Assembly: GCF_001642805.2 (NCBI RefSeq)
Contig: NZ_CP016948.1
Location: forward strand, 2,666,001 to 2,730,000
DNA length: 64,000 nucleotides
Source of the DNA: Serratia surfactantfaciens
GTDB lineage: Bacteria; Pseudomonadota; Gammaproteobacteria; Enterobacterales; Enterobacteriaceae
Reading direction: 5' to 3'
The translations under genes and the position numbers were made by a program. Position 1 is the first letter of the stretch; every line of letters starts with the position of its first letter. The notes beneath the pieces were generated by a model. It was not told the origin of the DNA. It did no database searches and saw only the letters and a list, made by a program, of their open reading frames with translations. This document shows positions 28,456 through 37,142 of this stretch, piece by piece.

Positions 28456-29180
28456 CGGCGCTCGGGGGCGATTTCCCCCAGGCGGATCGCCACGCCGATC
28501 GCCTGCGCGGTGGTGGCGGCGCCGAGCCGTTGGCGAATGCGCCGCAGATGGTTTTCTACCGTGCGTTCAGACAGGCCGAGCATCGCGGCAATATCCGCCT
28601 GGCGCCGGCCGATGGCGGTCCAGCTCAGCACCTCGCGCTCGCGCGCCGACAGACGCCCCCTCTCCTGCACGGCCGCCGGCTCGAACAGCCGCCGCGCCGC
28701 CAGAAAGGCCGCCGTGCCCACGAGCGACAGCGCCAACCGCACCGGCGGCGAGGCGTCGATGCGCTCGCCCCCCAGGCTGACAGCCCCCTCCAGGCCGGCG
28801 GGGCCGAACACCGGGATCTGCACGCCGTGCAGCCCCGCGCCGCGCGGCGTGCGCACAATCCGGTAGCGCTCTCCCTGCTCCGCCCGGGTTTTGGTCCAGA
28901 AGAACGGTTCGCTGGCCCGCAGCATGTGCCGGGTCACCGGGCAGTGCCGCACGTAGGTCAGCGCATCGACCGCCTCACCGTCGCCGAACCAGTCGCCCTC
29001 GACCCAATAGATATGCTCTATCCCCGCTTCCGCCGCAGCGGAGGCGGAGAACAGCACAAAGCGGTCGAAGCCGAACGGTGCGGCGAAGGTGCGAACCCGC
29101 CCCTGAATGGCGGACAGGGTTCGCTCATGCTCCATCGCCAACGCCGTCTGGAAAGCGCGCTGCGCGAGCTCGTCGCTCAT
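28452..29180 (-). CDS. LuxR-family solo regulator coupled to hchA
   Basis: A 242-residue protein with an N-terminal autoinducer-binding-type domain (about 20-165) and a C-terminal LuxR helix-turn-helix ([20 protein letters not shown], then [16 protein letters not shown]). Of the acyl-homoserine-lactone contact residues, Trp64, Pro81 and Trp95 are kept. The position of the invariant Asp is Cys80 and that of the invariant Tyr is Gly68. No luxI is present. It starts inside the hchA stop codon (ATGA), so the two are co-translated. It probably senses something other than a classical AHL. Confidence 0.8.
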
Positions 29181-30052
29181 CGCGCGGCGACGTCGGCCAA
29201 CAGCGTCTCCGCCGCCAGCTTGCCGAGGTTGTTGGAGGCCAGCGGGCTGTCGCCGGTCAGCAGGCGCCGATCTTTATGCACCTTGCCGGTGATGTCGCCG
29301 TTGACGATCTTGACGCCCCGCTCGCGCAGGCGTTCGCCCACCAGCCAGGGCATCGGGCCGGGGATGTAGCCGATGTCGATGTTGGCGCCGGTATCGAGCG
29401 AGTCCGGGAACACGCACATCTCATAGCCGCGATAGAGGAAATCCTCTTTGCGCTCGCCGATGCCCGCCGCCAGCAGGCCCGCCGGCCCGTGGCACAGCGA
29501 AATCACGTAGCGATCGTTGTCGTGCGCCCAGTGCAGGGTCTTTTTCACCTCTTCGCTGAACGGAATATCATTCAGCACGCCGTGGCCGCCGGGGATGAAA
29601 ACGCCGAGGTAGTTGCCGCCATCCAGATCCTTCACCACCTCCGTCAGCTTTTTCGGCTGCTTGAGTTGGCTGCGGTACTTCTCGTAGGTGGCCTTGACCG
29701 CTTCGTCTTCCTGCGGGAACGCCCACATCTCCAACTTCACCGGATCGCCGGACGGCGTGGCGATGTCGATCTCGAAACCGGCCAGATCCAGGTGGTACAT
29801 CGGCAACAGCATCTCGACCGGGTGGTTGCCGGTGGAGAAGAATTTGCCGTTTTGCATCAGCAGGTAGCGCTCCTGCGAGGCGATCATCAGCACCTTCCAC
29901 TTGCCGCCGCGATAGGCGTTCGGGTAGCTGGCGCCCGCGAAGTCGGTTTTGGACGAGGTGTACTGGCTGAGGGAGTAAGGCGATGGGAAGAACGCGTTGT
30001 CTTCCGCCACATCCGGGGTGGGATTACGATCGTTGGACACTGAATCAGTCAT
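29177..30052 (-). CDS. hchA: Hsp31-type protein deglycase/glyoxalase III
   Basis: A 291-residue DJ-1/PfpI-family protein. The catalytic Cys187 sits in the nucleophile elbow [10 protein letters not shown] next to His188, with Glu80 in GNHPVE. It acts on methylglyoxal and glycated protein and has been described as a holding chaperone. The ATG at 30052 is chosen because GGAG lies six bases before it; an ATG six codons upstream lacks this. It is first in a two-gene operon with the LuxR solo. Confidence 0.9.
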
Positions 30053-30153: not shown

Positions 30154-30921
30154 TCAGGCGAGATTGCGCAGAGCGATAATAAAGGTTTCTTCGCCGGCGC
30201 CCTGGTATTCATAGCGGCACTTTCTTACCGGCACCCGAAAATAGCGCTCCAGGATATCTTCCCGCAGCACAGCGCTTTTAACGCCAAACAACGACTGCCG
30301 TTTTGTCATCAGTAAACACTTGTCGGAGATGCGTTCGGCATAATTGAGGAAATGCGTATTCAGCACGATCGTCATCTGCCGCTCTTTGGCGAGGCGCCAG
30401 AGCATCTCGATCATTTTTGCCTGATTGTAAAAATCCAGGTTCGACTCCGGCTCATCAAGGATCATGACGTCAGGATCTGCCATCAGCGCCTTGGCGAAAT
30501 AACACATCTGCAGTTCACCGCCGCTGATCTGATCGATGCTTTTCTGCGCCAACGGGCCGATTTCCAGGGATTGCAGCACCGCCTGCGCCCTGGCGAAATC
30601 GTGCTTTCCCGGCCGGGCAAACAGTCCGGCCTGACGAACGCAGCCGAAAGTGACAAAATCGAGTACGCCATAGGAAAAATGTGGCGCCTTCGCCTGCGGC
30701 ACATAGGCCAGGCGCGCCTCTCGATTATCGACACGGCCGATCTCGCACCAGCCGGCGCTGGGCCGACACAGGCCCGCAATATTTCTCAGCAGCGTGGTTT
30801 TGCCGGCGCCGTTCGGGCCCAGCACGCTGAGGATCTCGCCGCGCTTAAGCTCGAAGCTGACGTTGTCGAAAATGGGCTCCCGCCCTTTGAAACCAAAGGA
30901 TAGTCGGCTAGCGGTGATCAT
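30154..30921 (-). CDS. FecE-type ABC transporter ATPase (metal or chelate uptake)
   Basis: A 255-residue ATPase. Walker A is GPNGAGKT (35-42), the signature is QISGGELQM and Walker B is VMILDEPES, with the switch His in NTHFLNYAE. It is of the iron/cobalamin/siderophore class that pairs with FecCD permeases. Its start overlaps the permease gene by 14 bases. It is the last gene of the five-gene operon running from 34870 and has no evident terminator close by. Confidence 0.85.
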   Translation of the reverse strand: MITASRLSFGFKGREPIFDNVSFELKRGEILSVLGPNGAGKTTLLRNIAGLCRPSAGWCEIGRVDNREARLAYVPQAKAPHFSYGVLDFVTFGCVRQAGLFARPGKHDFARAQAVLQSLEIGPLAQKSIDQISGGELQMCYFAKALMADPDVMILDEPESNLDFYNQAKMIEMLWRLAKERQMTIVLNTHFLNYAERISDKCLLMTKRQSLFGVKSAVLREDILERYFRVPVRKCRYEYQGAGEETFIIALRNLA

Positions 30922-31918
30922 ATCGATTGCCCATAATAAAAAGCGTGGCGAAAAGCGGCGCACCGATCAGCGCGGTCAGGATGCCGATCGGGATTTCTGC
31001 GTAGGTGGCGCCTCTGGCGATATTGTCTATCACCAGCAAAAACAACGCCCCGCTCAGCGCCGAGACCGGGATCAGGCGGCCGTGGTTATACCCCAGCACG
31101 CTTCTCACCAGATGCGGGATCACCAAGCCGACCCATCCCACCACGCCGGCCAAGCTTACCGAGGCGGAAACCAGCAGGGAGGCGGCGATCAGCAGCAGGA
31201 TCTTCAACCGGGGCGGATTTAGGCCGGCAATGCGCGCCTCGTCGTCCCCCAGCGAGAGAATGTTCATTTTCCACCTGAGCCGATAGATTGTCAGGTAACA
31301 CGCCGCAAACAGCGGGATTAGCCAATAGACCTGCGCTTTCGCCACCGAAGCGAAGCTGCCCATCAGCCAGAAGACAATCGCCGGCAAGGTATCCTGCGGA
31401 TCGGCGACATATTTTATGACCGAGACAAACGCGATAAACAACGACGCGATAATCATGCCGGACAGGATCGTCGTCAGCGCATCCTGCCGACGTTTCAGGC
31501 GACAGATGCCGAACACCAGCAGCAGGCTCACCACGCCGAAAAGAAACGACAGCATGGCACTCAGGGCAAAAGGCAGACTCAATAAAATGCCCAGCGCAGC
31601 GCCAAAGGCGGAGGCGGAAGAGGTGCCCAGCACGTCCGGGCTGGCTAACGCGTTTTTCAGCACCGCCTGAAAGGTCGCGCCGGCGACCGCCAACCCGCCG
31701 CCCACCAGCATCACCGCCACCACCCGCGGCGCGCGCAGGTTAAAAATCACCGAATAGCGGGTCGGGTTTTCCCCCGGCATGTTCCCCTGCCATAAAATCT
31801 GCATCACATCATGGGCCGACAAGGCGTAGCGGCCGGCAAACAGTGATGCGACGGCGGCCACACACAAGGCCAAAAACAGCCCCGCCAGGATCGCCACATA
31901 TTTTCCTCTGCCCGGCAT
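30908..31918 (-). CDS. FecCD-family ABC permease
   Basis: A 336-residue inner-membrane permease with about nine or ten hydrophobic segments and FecCD blocks (LRAPRVVAVMLVGGGLAVAG, VGWVGLVIPHLVRS, EIPIGILTALIGAP). The ATG at 31918 has GGAG seven bases upstream; a TTG two codons earlier is less likely. Only one permease gene is present, so it should work as a homodimer. The transported species is a metal or metal chelate by family. Confidence 0.88.
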   Translation of the reverse strand: MPGRGKYVAILAGLFLALCVAAVASLFAGRYALSAHDVMQILWQGNMPGENPTRYSVIFNLRAPRVVAVMLVGGGLAVAGATFQAVLKNALASPDVLGTSSASAFGAALGILLSLPFALSAMLSFLFGVVSLLLVFGICRLKRRQDALTTILSGMIIASLFIAFVSVIKYVADPQDTLPAIVFWLMGSFASVAKAQVYWLIPLFAACYLTIYRLRWKMNILSLGDDEARIAGLNPPRLKILLLIAASLLVSASVSLAGVVGWVGLVIPHLVRSVLGYNHGRLIPVSALSGALFLLVIDNIARGATYAEIPIGILTALIGAPLFATLFIMGNRYDHR

Positions 31919-31961
31919 CCCCAAGCTCCCCCCATTAAATGAATACTATTCAACCGTGGTT

Positions 31962-33038
31962 CTAGCGCTGTGCCAGCACCTCATCCAGCAACCGGTCCGG
32001 GATCGCATAGGAGAACATCGTCTGATAATAGCGGCGCGTCTCCTCCCACAGCGTCTTGTCGCTAATGTCTTCAGGCGCATAGCGGTTGATCATAAACAGC
32101 GGCAGCAGCGATGTTTCCGCCGACAGGCCCCCCCAGTTATGAATGCCCACCGGCGTCGAGAAAACCTTGCCGTTTTTTACCGCCCTGAGCGTTTCCCAGG
32201 CCTGGCCGGGGATCCCCCCGTGCAGCAGCGCTTTGGCGCTACCGAACACCACGAAAATCACATCCGGGTCCCAGGCCATGATCTGCTCCATCGAAACGTT
32301 GATGTACCTGCCGGCATCCCCTTTCACCGGCAAATCCCCGGCGACGTTGTCCATGCCGGCCATTTTCAGGTAGGTGTCGCCATAGGTATGCGGGCCACTC
32401 ACCTTCAGCTGCCTGCCGTCACTTTCTTCGAGATACAACGCCCTGACGTGCTGCGCATGGATGGCTGCGGCATAGGGGCGGATCTGCTTCAGGGTCTTTT
32501 CCCAGGCGTCTTTGAATTTGTGCGTGCGCGGCAGGCCGAGCGTGTCGGCGAAAGTGTTCTCCCAATACACCTGGGTAGCCATCGGCTGGTATTTTGTCTG
32601 CCCGCCGGCATCCAGATCGACGGTCATCACGCCCGCCCTTTCCAGCCGATCGTCCTGGCTTTTGCCGTAGTAATAAATAATGTCGGGCCGTAGATTCATT
32701 AACGATTCCATGTTGACCCGGTAGTCCTTATTGATGAAGGCGGAGGTGATCCTGCCGATGTCAGGCTTCATGTCCTCCAATACATGCCTATCGGCATGCA
32801 TGAACGCCCAGGGCCCCACGCCGACGACGTGCCGGTAGGCCGCCTCGTTCGCCAGGATCACGCCGAAGGGGCAGTTGCCGGTGATGACGATCCGCGGATA
32901 GCTGCCGGGCAGCGTTTGCGCCGCCACGCTTTGTGGCGGTTCGGCCGCCGCCGGCTGGCCGGCGGTGGCGTAAGGCGCCGTCGGCAAGGCGAATATTGCC
33001 AGCAGAGCGGTGGCGATAAATTTCACTGTGACGCACAT
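31962..33038 (-). CDS. Periplasmic binding protein of the metal/chelate ABC importer
   Basis: A 358-residue class III (FepB/BtuF-fold) substrate-binding protein. The ATG at 33038 has AGGAGG upstream and opens a Sec signal peptide ending near YATAG. Fold-typical blocks are NLRPDIIYYYG, YLKMAGMDNVAGD and MAWDPDVIFVVFG. The sequence contains a Cys and many His and Met residues, but I cannot assign the ligand. The frame upstream of the start is non-coding. It is 37 bases from the permease gene. Confidence 0.82.
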   Translation of the reverse strand: MCVTVKFIATALLAIFALPTAPYATAGQPAAAEPPQSVAAQTLPGSYPRIVITGNCPFGVILANEAAYRHVVGVGPWAFMHADRHVLEDMKPDIGRITSAFINKDYRVNMESLMNLRPDIIYYYGKSQDDRLERAGVMTVDLDAGGQTKYQPMATQVYWENTFADTLGLPRTHKFKDAWEKTLKQIRPYAAAIHAQHVRALYLEESDGRQLKVSGPHTYGDTYLKMAGMDNVAGDLPVKGDAGRYINVSMEQIMAWDPDVIFVVFGSAKALLHGGIPGQAWETLRAVKNGKVFSTPVGIHNWGGLSAETSLLPLFMINRYAPEDISDKTLWEETRRYYQTMFSYAIPDRLLDEVLAQR

Positions 33039-33084
33039 GGTGCCTCCTGTGCGCACGCTCGGCGGCGTGCGTCGATGGGCTGCT

Positions 33085-33483
33085 TTAGGCCGACGCGGCG
33101 ATGCCGGCGGCCATGATGGTGATCCCGGCCACAAACACGATTGCCGTGGTGGCGACCGCGCCGCCGCCGACCAACGCGGCGGTTTTTCCTGTGGAAAGGT
33201 CTTTTCGTTGCAGGAAAGAGAGCTGCGACAGAGGAATGATTTTTCCGCTGTCGGCAACCAAGTCTTTCGGTTCAACCTTCGCCACCGTCAGCTCGCCGCC
33301 GCTGCCGTCCTTCAGGCCATATTTCAACTGGTCGCCGACATAGACCGGCGGCTGCAGCAGGTAATACGGGCTATTGAGCCCCGCCTCTTTTTGTTGCAAT
33401 GCCACGTCGTGGTAGGTCGTGCAGCCGGCAAGGGAAAACGCCGCCATCCCGATAACCAACGGCACTAATGGGACAAATCGCAT
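33085..33483 (-). CDS. Small lipoprotein in the metal-transport operon
   Basis: A 132-residue protein with a lipobox (LAGC, lipidated Cys21). A soluble segment and then a Gly/Ala/Val-rich hydrophobic C-terminal stretch of about 30 residues follow, which could insert in a membrane. The start has GAGG six bases upstream. It lies 16 bases after the MFS gene and 46 before the binding protein gene. Family not recognised. Confidence 0.65.
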   Translation of the reverse strand: MRFVPLVPLVIGMAAFSLAGCTTYHDVALQQKEAGLNSPYYLLQPPVYVGDQLKYGLKDGSGGELTVAKVEPKDLVADSGKIIPLSQLSFLQRKDLSTGKTAALVGGGAVATTAIVFVAGITIMAAGIAASA

Positions 33484-33499
33484 GGGAAACCTCGTGCTT

Positions 33500-34870
33500 C
33501 TATTTGCTGGTTTTTAACGTAACGGCGGACTTGAAGCGCATATAGCTCACGACCAGAGAAAGGAACGAGAATGCCGCCCCCGCCATTAAACTGATATTCG
33601 TCGCTTGCGCGCCGCGCATATTGAAGAAAATCGCCACTAACGCCGAACCGACGATTTGCCCAATCAGCCGGGAGCTGCCCAACAGGCCGCTGGCGATGCT
33701 GCTGTTTTCATGGGAGACCGAAGTCATGATCAGCAGGTTGTTCGGTGATTGAAACAGGCCAAAACCGATGCCGCACAGCGCCACGCGCCATACGATCGCC
33801 CCATTCGACGGATCGCTGGGCAGATTGGCCATCAGCAGCATGCCTGCCAGCAGACAGGCAAGGCCCGAGAGGGCAACAAGATTGGGATCGTATTTCTTGG
33901 CCAAATCGCCGGAAATTAGCGAAGACGCCATGGTGGCCAGCGGCCAGGCGGTCAGCAACAGACCGATGTCCACCACGTTTCTTTGCAGGACATTGTGGAA
34001 ATAGAAAGGCAGCGATACAAAAGCCAAAAGCTGGGTGCTGTAAGACAGCATCGACATCAGCAAAGACAATGACAGCGTCGGATTATGCAGCATCGCGATC
34101 GGGATCAGCGCGGCGTTGGCCTTTCTTTTCTGATTGATATACAGCAACCCGGCCAGCCCGGCGAATACCGCAAAGCTCAGCGCCGCCGCCGGCAGATGGT
34201 GGGTGGTCATGCTCATGGTGCTGAGCGAGAAAGCGATGAACAGCACAAACACCAACAGGGCGCCCCCGCGGTCAAATCCAACGCTGCGTCGCTCGCGGGG
34301 GGCCAGGAAGATCAGGCTCAGCAACAGCGACAGGCAGGCGATGGGAACATTGATGGTAAACAGCCAGTTCCAGCTCGTTTGAGAAAGTATCGCCGAGGCG
34401 ATGGAGGGCCCGGCGGCGGCGGAAACCGACACCACCATTACGTTTATGCCCAGGCCGCGCCCCAGCAGCCTTTCCGGGTATATCTCCTTGATCAGCGCCG
34501 CATTGACGCTGAGCACCGCCGCCGCACCGAAGCCCTGTATCACCCGGAATGCCGTCAGCATCGACAGCGTCGCGGAAAGCGCGCAGCCCAAGGATGAAAA
34601 AGCGAACAGCACCACCCCGGCTATAAAGATCTTTTTATTGCCCACCGCGCGGCCCAGCGCCGCGAAGGGCATCAAAGAGGCAACGACGGCAAACTGGTAG
34701 GCATTAATAATCATGATGGAGGCCGATTCGGAAACGCCGAAATCTTTGGCGATCACCGGCAGTGCCACATTGGCGATGGTACTGTCGAGCATGGCGATAA
34801 CCGTGCTTAACGAGACCGCGAGAACGGCGAATATATTTAATGTCTCTTTTTCCTGGTGTTTAAAAGTCAT
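33500..34870 (-). CDS. MFS exporter, DHA2-like
   Basis: A 456-residue multi-spanning membrane protein with the drug:H+ antiporter-2 signature LDSTIANVALPVI in segment 1 and GRAVGNKK after segment 2. Relatives export drugs, dyes or siderophores. It is the promoter-proximal gene of an operon with a lipoprotein and a FecBCD-type importer, which suggests export of a small chelator or of a toxic metal complex. No chelator synthesis gene is nearby, so the substrate is inference. Confidence 0.82.
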   Translation of the reverse strand: MTFKHQEKETLNIFAVLAVSLSTVIAMLDSTIANVALPVIAKDFGVSESASIMIINAYQFAVVASLMPFAALGRAVGNKKIFIAGVVLFAFSSLGCALSATLSMLTAFRVIQGFGAAAVLSVNAALIKEIYPERLLGRGLGINVMVVSVSAAAGPSIASAILSQTSWNWLFTINVPIACLSLLLSLIFLAPRERRSVGFDRGGALLVFVLFIAFSLSTMSMTTHHLPAAALSFAVFAGLAGLLYINQKRKANAALIPIAMLHNPTLSLSLLMSMLSYSTQLLAFVSLPFYFHNVLQRNVVDIGLLLTAWPLATMASSLISGDLAKKYDPNLVALSGLACLLAGMLLMANLPSDPSNGAIVWRVALCGIGFGLFQSPNNLLIMTSVSHENSSIASGLLGSSRLIGQIVGSALVAIFFNMRGAQATNISLMAGAAFSFLSLVVSYMRFKSAVTLKTSK

Positions 34871-34943
34871 GTTAACGCTCCAAAAACGTGAGTGGCTTCA
34901 TGCCGGCAGCAAAGACCCCGTTTTTTATCCGTTTTATTAATTA

Positions 34944-34958
34944 CGTTATAACATATCA
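34944..34958 (-). promoter_or_regulatory. Zur-box-like operator upstream of the MFS/ABC operon
   Basis: The 15 bases CGTTATAACATATCA match the Zur core TGTTATANTATAACA at 12 positions, 74-88 bases before the MFS start. It shares the 9-mer GTTATAACA with 35163-35171. The outer arms of the consensus are poorly kept. The surrounding 334-base divergent spacer (34871-35204) is strongly AT-rich. Confidence 0.45.
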
Positions 34959-35156
34959 ATTAAGAAGGAGAATAAATCTCATTTGAAATATTAGATTAAA
35001 TAGTGTGTCAAAATAAGAATTAACAAATACAAAACAAATAAATATCAATACGAACATTCAATAAACAAAATAAATGCAGTATAAAAAACCAGTGAACTTA
35101 AGGAATGACATTAAAAGTAACAGCCGCTAACAGACAACCCCGCCGAAGCACGGAAT

Positions 35157-35171
35157 TGTTATGTTATAACA
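35157..35171 (+). promoter_or_regulatory. Zur-box-like operator upstream of the amidase gene
   Basis: TGTTATGTTATAACA matches the Zur core TGTTATANTATAACA at 14 of 15 positions, and it extends as the perfect dyad TTGTTAT-GTT-ATAACAA (35156-35172). It lies 34-48 bases before the amidase ATG, where a repressor would cover the promoter. The outer arms match on one side only (GAAT against GAAA). Confidence 0.6.
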
Positions 35172-35204
35172 AAAACACCCTTTCCTTTTATGCTGGTTAC
35201 CCTT

Positions 35205-36035
35205 ATGGCTAAGACGGACCTTTTGAACACCCGGTTATCTCGCCGCAGAATGATGTTGGCAGGGCTGGCGGCCCTGGCGCTGAACGGCGCCGTTTCCCCG
35301 CTGGCTCACGCCCACGGCCTGCCGCGCCCCAAGCCTCACGGTGCGCGAAAAAGATTCCTGGTCATGTTGGATCCCGGTCATGGCGGCATCGACTCCGGTG
35401 CCATTGGCCACACCGGTTCGCTGGAAAAACATGTCGTTCTGGAGATCGCCAGAAATGTGCGTGCACAGCTCGATCGACACGGCATCGATGCCCGCCTGAC
35501 GCGCGACAGCGACGTTTTTATTCCGCTTTACGATCGGGTGGAGATCGCGCACCGGCATGGCGCGGATCTTTTCATGTCCATCCACGCCGACGGTTTTACC
35601 TGCCCCAGCGCCTGCGGCGCTTCGGTCTTTGCGCTTTCCAATAAAGGCGCCAGCAGCGCGATGGCGAAATACTTATCGAACAGTGAAAACGCGGCGGACG
35701 ATCTCGCCGGCCCTAACGTCATCAAGAAAGACCGCTATTTGCAGAAGATACTGTTTGACTTGGAGCAGACGGAAACGATCAAAGAAAGCCTGGCGCTGGG
35801 CTCGCACCTGATTCAACATATTGCGCCCATCCATCATCTGCATGCCAAAAATACCGAACAGGCGGCCTTCGTGGTCTTAAAGTCCCCGTATATTCCTTCC
35901 GTCTTGGTGGAAACCTCTTTCATCACCAACCCTGAGGAAGAAAAGCTGCTCGGCACCCCCGCCTTCAGAAATAAAATTGCCACGGCGATCGCTCAGGGGA
36001 TCGTCAGCTACTTTAAACGCGAAACGCACGCTTAA
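35205..36035 (+). CDS. Tat-exported AmiA-like N-acetylmuramoyl-L-alanine amidase
   Basis: A 276-residue zinc amidase that cleaves the amide bond between N-acetylmuramic acid and the peptide in septal peptidoglycan. A twin-arginine signal (LSRRRMMLAG, Arg13-15) opens the protein. Zinc ligands His59 (DPGHGG), Glu74 and His127 (SIHADG) and the catalytic Glu in VLVETSFITN are all present, as is the helical insert resembling the inhibitory helix of E. coli AmiA. The ATG at 35205 (MAKTDLL) is favoured over one five codons upstream; no strong ribosome site is seen. It is likely an extra paralogue, since it is beside a metal-transport operon. Confidence 0.85.
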   Translation: MAKTDLLNTRLSRRRMMLAGLAALALNGAVSPLAHAHGLPRPKPHGARKRFLVMLDPGHGGIDSGAIGHTGSLEKHVVLEIARNVRAQLDRHGIDARLTRDSDVFIPLYDRVEIAHRHGADLFMSIHADGFTCPSACGASVFALSNKGASSAMAKYLSNSENAADDLAGPNVIKKDRYLQKILFDLEQTETIKESLALGSHLIQHIAPIHHLHAKNTEQAAFVVLKSPYIPSVLVETSFITNPEEEKLLGTPAFRNKIATAIAQGIVSYFKRETHA

Positions 36036-36046
36036 GCTTCGCCGGG

Positions 36047-36070
36047 GCGGCAAGCTCACGGGCTTGCCGC
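36047..36070 (+). other. Intercistronic hairpin between amidase and porin genes
   Basis: Perfect nine-base arms GCGGCAAGC/GCTTGCCGC with a six-base loop lie in the 54-base gap. No T tract follows, so it is probably a partial terminator or stability element within a shared transcript. Confidence 0.5.
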
Positions 36071-36089
36071 GCACAGGGACGGTGCCATC

Positions 36090-37142
36090 ATGATAAAACG
36101 CAATCCTCGTTATTTTTCGGCGGGCATGCTTTTCCCCCTGCTGGCCTTGTTACCGCGCGGCGCCTTCGCCGTGTCGTTGACGGGATCGCAGCAAAACAGC
36201 CTGAATTTCTACGGCACGATTATCGCCAGACGCTACAGCGGCCACAACGAACGCGACGACGGCGACCGCAGCTACCTCTATTTCGGCCTGATAGGCAAAA
36301 AAAAGATCGCGCCGCGCTGGCAGGCCTACGCCCACTGGGAATATACCGTCAGCTTCGCCGACGCGACGCGCAACAGCACCCGGCTCGCCTATATCGGCGT
36401 GCAAAACGCCGCCCTGGGCAGCCTCGATATCGGCCGCAACTGGGGCGTGCTTTATGATGTGACCGCCCTGACCGATCGCTCTCCGCTGTTTAGAGAGATG
36501 GCCTACAACTACATCGACAACTTTATGCGCGGCCGGGCGCATAACCTGCTCACCTACCGCCAAACTTTCAGCCTGTTTCAGCGGCGCGCCGCCCTCGCGC
36601 TGCAATACCAGTTCAAAGACGGCGACGAACGGCAAGCGCCGGGCAAACAAAACGGCAACGGATTCGGCGCCTCGTTCCGTTATGCGCTGACGCCGACGCT
36701 CAGCCTCATCGCCGCCGCCTCGGCGTCTCAAACCACGCAGCGGCAGCAACACGCCGCCGGCTATCGCCGGCGCATCGATACGCTGGCCGAAGGGGTTCTC
36801 TATGCGTCGAAAAAAATCTATCTTGCGGCCGTGTTCACCCAAAGCGACAACGCCATCAGCCCGCAACAAACCGCTAACCACGGTTCGGCGTCAAGCTATG
36901 AAGCGCTCGCCAAATATCGGCTGACGGACCATATTCAACCCAACATCGGCTATACCCGCTTGATACAGGCCCGGGCAGGCCGGAACACGGACTTATTGAA
37001 CTATGAGGAGTTGGGGGTCACCTGGTTGCTCAACGGCAATATGCAGGTGTTCATTAACTATGAATTCAATAACCTTTCGCAGCACGCGGCCGGCGTCGAT
37101 GCGTCGGACAAGCTCGATATGGGCATCAGCTATCACTGCTGA
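36090..37142 (+). CDS. Divergent OmpC/OmpF-type general porin
   Basis: A 350-residue outer-membrane beta-barrel protein. A signal peptide ends near GAFA, followed by porin-like strands (SLNFYGTIIARRYSG, YLYFGLIGKKKI, LTYRQTFSLFQRRAALALQYQF, LTDHIQPNIGYTRL, MQVFINYEFNNL). The expected C-terminal Phe, the usual BamA recognition residue, is replaced by a terminal Cys (GISYHC). It follows the amidase by 54 bases and may share its promoter. The permeant is unknown. Confidence 0.75.
   Translation: MIKRNPRYFSAGMLFPLLALLPRGAFAVSLTGSQQNSLNFYGTIIARRYSGHNERDDGDRSYLYFGLIGKKKIAPRWQAYAHWEYTVSFADATRNSTRLAYIGVQNAALGSLDIGRNWGVLYDVTALTDRSPLFREMAYNYIDNFMRGRAHNLLTYRQTFSLFQRRAALALQYQFKDGDERQAPGKQNGNGFGASFRYALTPTLSLIAAASASQTTQRQQHAAGYRRRIDTLAEGVLYASKKIYLAAVFTQSDNAISPQQTANHGSASSYEALAKYRLTDHIQPNIGYTRLIQARAGRNTDLLNYEELGVTWLLNGNMQVFINYEFNNLSQHAAGVDASDKLDMGISYHC

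Follow-up and report, generated by a model that had tools for sequence, protein, structure and literature searches.

Zur-controlled importers of the FecBCD type and spare zinc enzymes, AmiA paralogues among them, are already known. According to the accessible part of PMC11481552, PA2911-PA2914 of P. aeruginosa is a FecBCD-type importer under Zur that acts on pyochelin-cobalt, and some actinomycete opine zincophore clusters pair a major facilitator superfamily (MFS) transporter with FecCD (PMC7438024, accessible in part). AmiA paralogues that are linked to Zur and keep their zinc residues have been noted as well (Haas 2009, PMC2770081, accessible in part), and the Zur-controlled, EDTA-resistant endopeptidase ShyB of V. 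cholerae illustrates how an extra copy can help (PMC6381278, accessible in part). Here we analysed a seven-gene block from a member of the Serratia marcescens group in which a five-gene operon with such an importer faces an AmiA-class amidase, named AmiA2, and a porin. The block lies within a 64,000-nucleotide stretch, hereafter the window, that covers positions 2666001-2730000 of a 5.1-Mb single-contig genome; coordinates refer to the window unless the genome is named. An earlier sequence-only reading by a model had interpreted this block as a zinc-starvation locus. Its observation of the genes and of two dyads is confirmed, and its interpretation is partly supported. Overall, the block is probably a mobile zinc-starvation cassette.

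Two predicted Zur boxes lie in one divergent spacer

The MFS and AmiA operons are separated by a divergent spacer of 319 bp with 32% G+C. The two dyads were found where the sequence-only reading had placed them, with GTTATAACA present at 34945-34953 and again at 35163-35171, and the 12/15 and 14/15 matches to a Zur core that it had counted agree with the three (MFS-side) and one (amidase-side) mismatches that we counted over the 14 fixed positions of the Zur 15-mer TGTTATANTATAACA. Across the genome, the 15-mer gave four perfect and six one-mismatch sites, one of the six being the amidase-side site (35157-35171), and 14 distinct sites at up to two mismatches (15 listed, of which two overlap). 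The reversed 15-mer, used as a control, gave four sites at up to two mismatches and none at zero or one. In the genome-wide ranking that had been proposed, the amidase-side site therefore stood out (10 sites at no more than one mismatch, none for the reversed motif), while the MFS-side site failed with the 15-mer and succeeded with the 20-mer box TGWNAYRWTATAWYRTNWCA. This 20-mer was derived from the crystal structure (Gilston et al. 2014, PMC4219657, accessible in part); at up to two mismatches it gave 17 matches (15 distinct) that include the MFS-side site, against three for its reversed control. A Zur box is thus found in the promoter region on both sides, on the amidase side by the 15-mer and on the MFS side by the 20-mer.

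The other sites in the genome have a consistent neighbourhood: 10 of the 12 distinct 15-mer sites with up to two mismatches outside the window adjoin zinc genes or metal-uptake genes, as identified by family searches. Their neighbours are the genes for type B L31, cysS, dksA, zinT, znuA and a DUF1007 protein (a family that we take to have a zinc link), folE2 with a CobW protein, and the binding protein of an opine cluster. At one further site, a TonB-receptor-like gene (below cut-off, from a truncated query) is followed by PF01497 and FecCD genes, and at another a FecE-like ATPase (below cut-offs) stands with a PF01497 protein. Site L005 is beside an apparent zinc ATP-binding cassette (ABC) operon, which was identified by eye only. 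The znuA gene, elsewhere in the genome and with its own two-mismatch Zur site, agrees with the proposal that the block is separate from ZnuABC. The genome also has a zur gene (NF008646, 324 bits, cut-off 167). Its product contains SAYDLL and TVYRAL, which we take to be the contexts of Tyr45 and Arg65 of E. coli Zur. Both residues are named in the accessible part of PMC4219657. Taken together, Zur control of the block is very probable, about as strong a case as sequence allows.

A few other predicted sites were seen along the way. One Zur-like site, TATTCTGTTATAATGTATCA at 2756-2775, has two mismatches to the 20-mer and lies about 25 bp ahead of a small exported-looking ORF (open reading frame) that starts at 2800 (MKIQLSLLFLSLL...). 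A one-mismatch site (L110, 3935-3954) lies between an azoreductase-like gene and fliE, both identified by eye, and has no obvious target. Three further FecBCD-type loci of the same genome (L105, L106 and L107) are near Zur boxes, one of them with an opine dehydrogenase.

The block and its boxes recur in mobile settings

The genes for the MFS transporter, binding protein, FecCD permease, ATPase and AmiA homologue were linked in all 17 related loci compared by tblastn, which also placed the type A porin in 13 and the lipoprotein in 10. Since it is present in just these 10 loci (nine from Serratia, and L071), we placed the lipoprotein outside the cassette core. The permease of L067 is in two pieces, and the AmiA of L067 and L068 aligns partially or in pieces. 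Together with the window, these loci provided 18 spacers from Serratia, E. coli, Enterobacter and Klebsiella. The MFS-side box was present at up to two mismatches in all 18, and the amidase-side box at up to three mismatches to the 20-mer in all 14 non-plasmid spacers. When 14 spacers were aligned, the longest invariant run (13 columns, ACGTTATAACATA) fell within the MFS-side box. For the 11 of 18 loci that were scanned whole, all 18 matches at up to two mismatches were in the divergent spacer, one of them (L071) at its edge.

The binding protein belongs to a narrow family, in which 22 of 26 recovered proteins align at 59-99% and the remaining four at 24-29%. The copies in S. marcescens, S. 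bockelmannii and S. ureilytica are 93-96% identical to that of the window. Orthologues with at least 73% identity occur in 10 of 30 Serratia genomes, host included, and orthologues at E <= 1e-60 in five of the 295 genomes of a family sample, two of them outside Serratia. By nucleotide match, the block occurs in five of 5426 E. coli genomes (two of these records share one strain name), and among 72,556 plasmid records five, of Enterobacter and Klebsiella origin, carry it. Near the E. coli copies are VirB-type transfer genes (in both records read that far) and an integrase with tRNA-Asn (in three of the four records opened). The block of importer, amidase and porin genes is a mobile cassette.

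Its surroundings differ among carriers. A DUF554/UbiD/LysR-type cargo is common to an Enterobacter cancerogenus plasmid (L068, 237-4200) and the E. coli 4CC island (L112, 7024-10919), both of which carry the cassette. In E. coli A38 (L064, 13126-19437), the cassette is adjoined by an AfsA-like/ketosynthase/acyl carrier/transketolase cluster with its own MFS gene and by a further porin. In all four E. coli records opened, the importer operon is followed by a LuxR-family regulator (L065, 10482-11099) whose autoinducer-binding domain is weak; this regulator was not seen in the annotation of the plasmids.

A Fur-like box accompanies the MFS-side box in relatives

We scanned the same spacers with a 19-mer that we take to be the Fur consensus. 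In seven of the 18, from two E. coli, G196 and four plasmids, a Fur-like site with 1-4 mismatches lies 1 or 3 bp from the MFS-side box, and at most 1% of 500 shuffles reach these sites; such fractions were taken spacer by spacer and left uncorrected, and the 18 spacers are partly near-identical. With the 15-mer form of the motif, two Serratia loci (L060 and L061) have a one-mismatch site reached by no shuffle, and L071 has a two-mismatch site reached by 0.4%. For the window and its seven nearest relatives no Fur-like 19-mer was found, the best candidates having 6-8 mismatches (13-92% of shuffles), and the 15-mer form has 3-4 mismatches (5-38%). We rejected Fur control in the window, since its 19-mer has seven mismatches, a level that 45% of shuffles reach, and a Fur-like box is present only in relatives.

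The simplest reading of this distribution takes joint regulation by Zur and Fur as the older state, with a loss of the Fur input in the S. marcescens group. Alternatively, the Fur input could have been gained later. Two repressors at one promoter would imply that full release needs both metals to be low.

The amidase has its own lineage and the porin is exchanged

The sequence-only reading depended on the amidase not being the only AmiA-class gene in the genome. It is not, since the genome has four Amidase_3 genes, and the one most similar to AmiA2, at genome positions 3084730-3085524, shares 65-68% identity with it where the two align. We built a tree of 21 sequences, which is midpoint-rooted for drawing and has one flagged long row (AmiB). 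In it, the ten AmiAs from the module form one group (97/99; all 200 bootstrap trees), separate from the eight chromosomal AmiAs. This group joins the chromosomal AmiAs of two non-Serratia carriers and not those of Serratia (81/100), which makes a copy made within Serratia unlikely. The four zinc-site residues (H, E and H, with the catalytic E), whose positions we take to be those of AmiA and AmiC, are kept by AmiA2 and by all 36 aligned rows (a few genes appear twice). By sequence AmiA2 is therefore still a zinc enzyme, in line with the idea that it backs up a zinc-limited amidase.

The porins are of two types. The three plasmid porins examined (type B) have 425 residues, more acidic than basic ones (46-48 vs 22-25) and 14-16 histidines; a slight excess of basic residues was seen in the 11 type A porins examined (34-39 vs 25-27). 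Both types occur in E. coli 4CC, whose type B porin is 59% identical to the type B porin of E. mori. Type B was found in none of the 30 Serratia genomes, in a search that had no positive control. The type A porin of the window ends in ...SYHC (37137-37139), and the 10 type A relatives with printed ends all end in ...SYHW. The C-terminal residue of such porins is important for assembly.

Gene calls and neighbourhood

Gene identities were assigned from ORFs and from Pfam and NCBIfam profile searches (Table 1), which bore out the five-gene operon facing the amidase and the porin, with the start of the binding protein moved to 33038. The ATG at this position, with AGGAGG ahead of it, is its likeliest start, and the longer ORF start at 33275 is disfavoured. 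With a PF01497 binding protein, a PF01032 permease and an ABC ATPase, the importer is of the FecBCD type. It falls outside the ZnuABC family, as PF01497 was the sole match of the binding protein and the permease scored far better with PF01032 than with ABC-3. Some of the other assignments are looser: the MFS transporter scored under the NCBIfam EmrB/DHA2 cut-offs (TIGR00711, 172 bits vs 230; NF000391, 108 bits vs 925), the porin scored under the NCBIfam porin cut-offs, and the lipoprotein had no family match in the Pfam or NCBIfam searches. The profile search revealed no TonB-dependent receptor among the seven genes.

Table 1. Genes and predicted regulatory sites of the block, in window coordinates
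Feature	Position	Strand	Basis and remarks
FecE-type ABC ATPase, 255 aa from ATG at 30921	30154..30921	-	PF00005; in 17/17 related loci
FecCD-type permease	30908..31924	-	PF01032 277 bits, ABC-3 33 bits; in 17/17 related loci
Class III periplasmic binding protein, 358 aa	31962..33038	-	PF01497
Small lipoprotein	33085..33483	-	Lipobox LAGC
DHA2-like MFS transporter	33500..34870	-	PF07690; nearest solved sequence EmrB
MFS-side predicted Zur box AATTACGTTATAACATATCA	34939..34958		2 mismatches to TGWNAYRWTATAWYRTNWCA; <=2 mismatches in 18/18 spacers
Position that holds the Fur-like box in relatives; degenerate in the window (AAGAAGGAGAATAAATCTC)	34962..34980		7 mismatches to Fur 19-mer, 45% of shuffles
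Amidase-side predicted Zur box GGAATTGTTATGTTATAACA	35152..35171		1 mismatch to 15-mer, 3 to 20-mer
AmiA-class amidase (AmiA2), twin-arginine motif SRRRMML	35190..36035	+	NCBIfam AmiA NF007652, 442 bits, cut-off 400
OmpC/PhoE-like porin (type A), last residue Cys	36090..37142	+	PF00267 161 bits

Promoter-like sites (4 found vs 4.1 in shuffles) and terminator-like sites (23 found vs 10.9 in shuffles, mostly within genes) were not used as evidence. On the same strand as the ATPase gene and about 100 nt behind it lies hchA (29177-30052; NF003168, 475 bits), which adjoins the block in all nine Serratia loci fetched and may be a further gene of the operon; no terminator-like site was listed in the gap between the two genes. 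The E. coli 4CC island also has hchA, about 20 kb from the cassette.

Proposed function and competing explanations

We propose that when zinc is plentiful, zinc-loaded Zur would sit on the two boxes and shut both operons, and that zinc shortage would release both. The left operon would then supply a FecBCD-type importer for a small metal chelate, most likely zinc, or a zinc-sparing metal such as cobalt, with a small organic ligand. Import of a metal chelate that helps the cell in zinc shortage is a likely role of the block. The chelate would pass the outer membrane through the co-induced porin, a route suggested by the lack of a TonB receptor in the block, and the MFS pump may export the ligand or a by-product, which is the least certain step. 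From the right operon, AmiA2 would act as a spare zinc amidase that sustains septal wall cleavage once the housekeeping amidases lose their zinc. Where a Fur-like box accompanies the Zur box, as in several relatives that do not belong to the S. marcescens group, full release of the importer would take low zinc together with low iron; the lineage of the window lacks that box.

Several observations weigh against a zinc-starvation cassette, or against single parts of it. By the 15-mer, the MFS-side site is at noise level (64 sites at up to three mismatches vs 78 for the reversed motif). In a Zur matrix it scores 23.4 bits, and 11 of 12 left-out training sites score higher; the window sites were outside the training set, and the scores are not independent because the training sites were chosen with the 15-mer. 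We nevertheless kept the MFS-side dyad as a predicted Zur box because of its 20-mer match and its conservation. A search around the 15-mer site L009 gave no candidate gene, and neighbours were looked at for nine of the 13 distinct 20-mer sites that lie elsewhere in the genome. Among the plasmid copies, the second, amidase-side box is lacking in all four spacers read, the best 15-mer of the L067 plasmid spacer is equalled by 9% of shuffles, some cassette genes look interrupted in two plasmids, and the plasmid porin differs from the type A porin of the window. As for the cargo, FecBCD systems often transport iron siderophores or vitamin B12. The top fold matches of the binding protein include binders of molybdate, nickel, iron-siderophore and an unknown ligand, and the structural comparison singled out no ligand.

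Given that relatives have a Fur-like box and that PA2911-PA2914 acts on pyochelin-cobalt (PMC11481552, accessible in part), the cargo may not be a zinc-only chelate. One alternative would make the importer essentially an iron-chelate (siderophore or xenosiderophore) type, to which the Zur box adds zinc control as in a mixed metallophore system, with amidase and porin as zinc-response passengers that share the spacer. We regard this as possible yet doubtful, since the window and its seven nearest relatives have a poor Fur 19-mer (6-8 mismatches, 13-92% of shuffles) while their Zur boxes stay, although two of these spacers do better with the Fur 15-mer form (5% and 10%). Moreover, the seven genes include no TonB receptor, and none of the 11 loci scanned has a Fur 19-mer at up to four mismatches on its amidase side. 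The importer could also carry cobalt or another zinc-sparing metal with a small ligand. This is what PA2911-PA2914 suggests, as a Zur-controlled FecBCD-type importer acting on pyochelin-cobalt (PMC11481552, accessible in part), and the nickel-binding CeuE is among the nearest folds. We hold such a cargo to be unlikely all the same, given that PA2911-PA2914 has the TonB receptor that the cassette lacks. Finally, an EmrB-like MFS pump and the weakness of 34939-34958 by the 15-mer would both fit a drug or toxin efflux locus whose Zur-like dyads are coincidental. Such a locus is very improbable here, because the boxes are conserved over diverged spacers in several genera and the importer genes are linked in 17/17 loci.

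Returning to the zinc-starvation cassette, a more far-reaching version of it can be put forward tentatively, as one that we consider rather doubtful in its full form. The block may be a portable nutritional-immunity cassette on plasmids and islands resembling integrative and conjugative elements, whose single divergent promoter region reads zinc (through Zur) and iron (through Fur) together and drives uptake of a small chelate common to both metals. It would also drive a porin that can be exchanged (type A, basic, or type B, acidic and histidine-rich) and an amidase dedicated to low zinc; in the S. marcescens group the iron input would have been dropped, leaving zinc control only. The zinc-starvation cassette as such would amount to a self-contained response to metal withholding that spreads horizontally and in which a single sensor governs metal uptake, entry through the outer membrane and maintenance of the cell wall. 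The spacer would offer a natural case of a promoter that differs between close relatives in joint zinc/iron versus zinc control, and AmiA2 a directly testable case for spare amidases in zinc-starved bacteria.

Comparison with known systems

New here are the combination of these genes in a mobile unit, the exchange of porins and the pairing of Zur with Fur-like boxes, of which we found no description in the open-licence literature. Like ZnuABC, the cassette would be a metal ABC importer under Zur; unlike it, the best families are a class III binding protein and a FecCD permease instead of ZnuA and ABC-3. With PA2911-PA2914 it shares a siderophore-type ABC importer under Zur that is separate from ZnuABC (PMC11481552, accessible in part). 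That system has a TonB receptor, whereas the cassette has a porin, an MFS pump and an amidase, is mobile, and carries a Fur-like box in relatives.

The opine zincophore clusters likewise have a FecBCD importer next to an exporter (PMC7438024, accessible in part), but the seven genes of the cassette include no opine dehydrogenase of the CntM type. The only match in the genome is at genome positions 1502626-1503900, in a cluster with its own FecBCD genes and a Zur box. Because that cluster has its own importer genes, the cassette is not needed for an opine zincophore, and we rejected such a link as unnecessary.

On the cell-wall side, ShyB is also an extra zinc-dependent wall hydrolase under Zur and on a mobile island; it is an endopeptidase and not an amidase, and the accessible part of PMC6381278 mentions no importer beside it. 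The Zur-linked AmiA paralogues (PMC2770081; Mikhaylina 2018, PMC6103462; both accessible in part) share with AmiA2 the extra AmiA, the kept zinc ligands and the link to Zur. The difference is that here the amidase belongs to a lineage of its own and is joined to an importer and a porin in one cassette.

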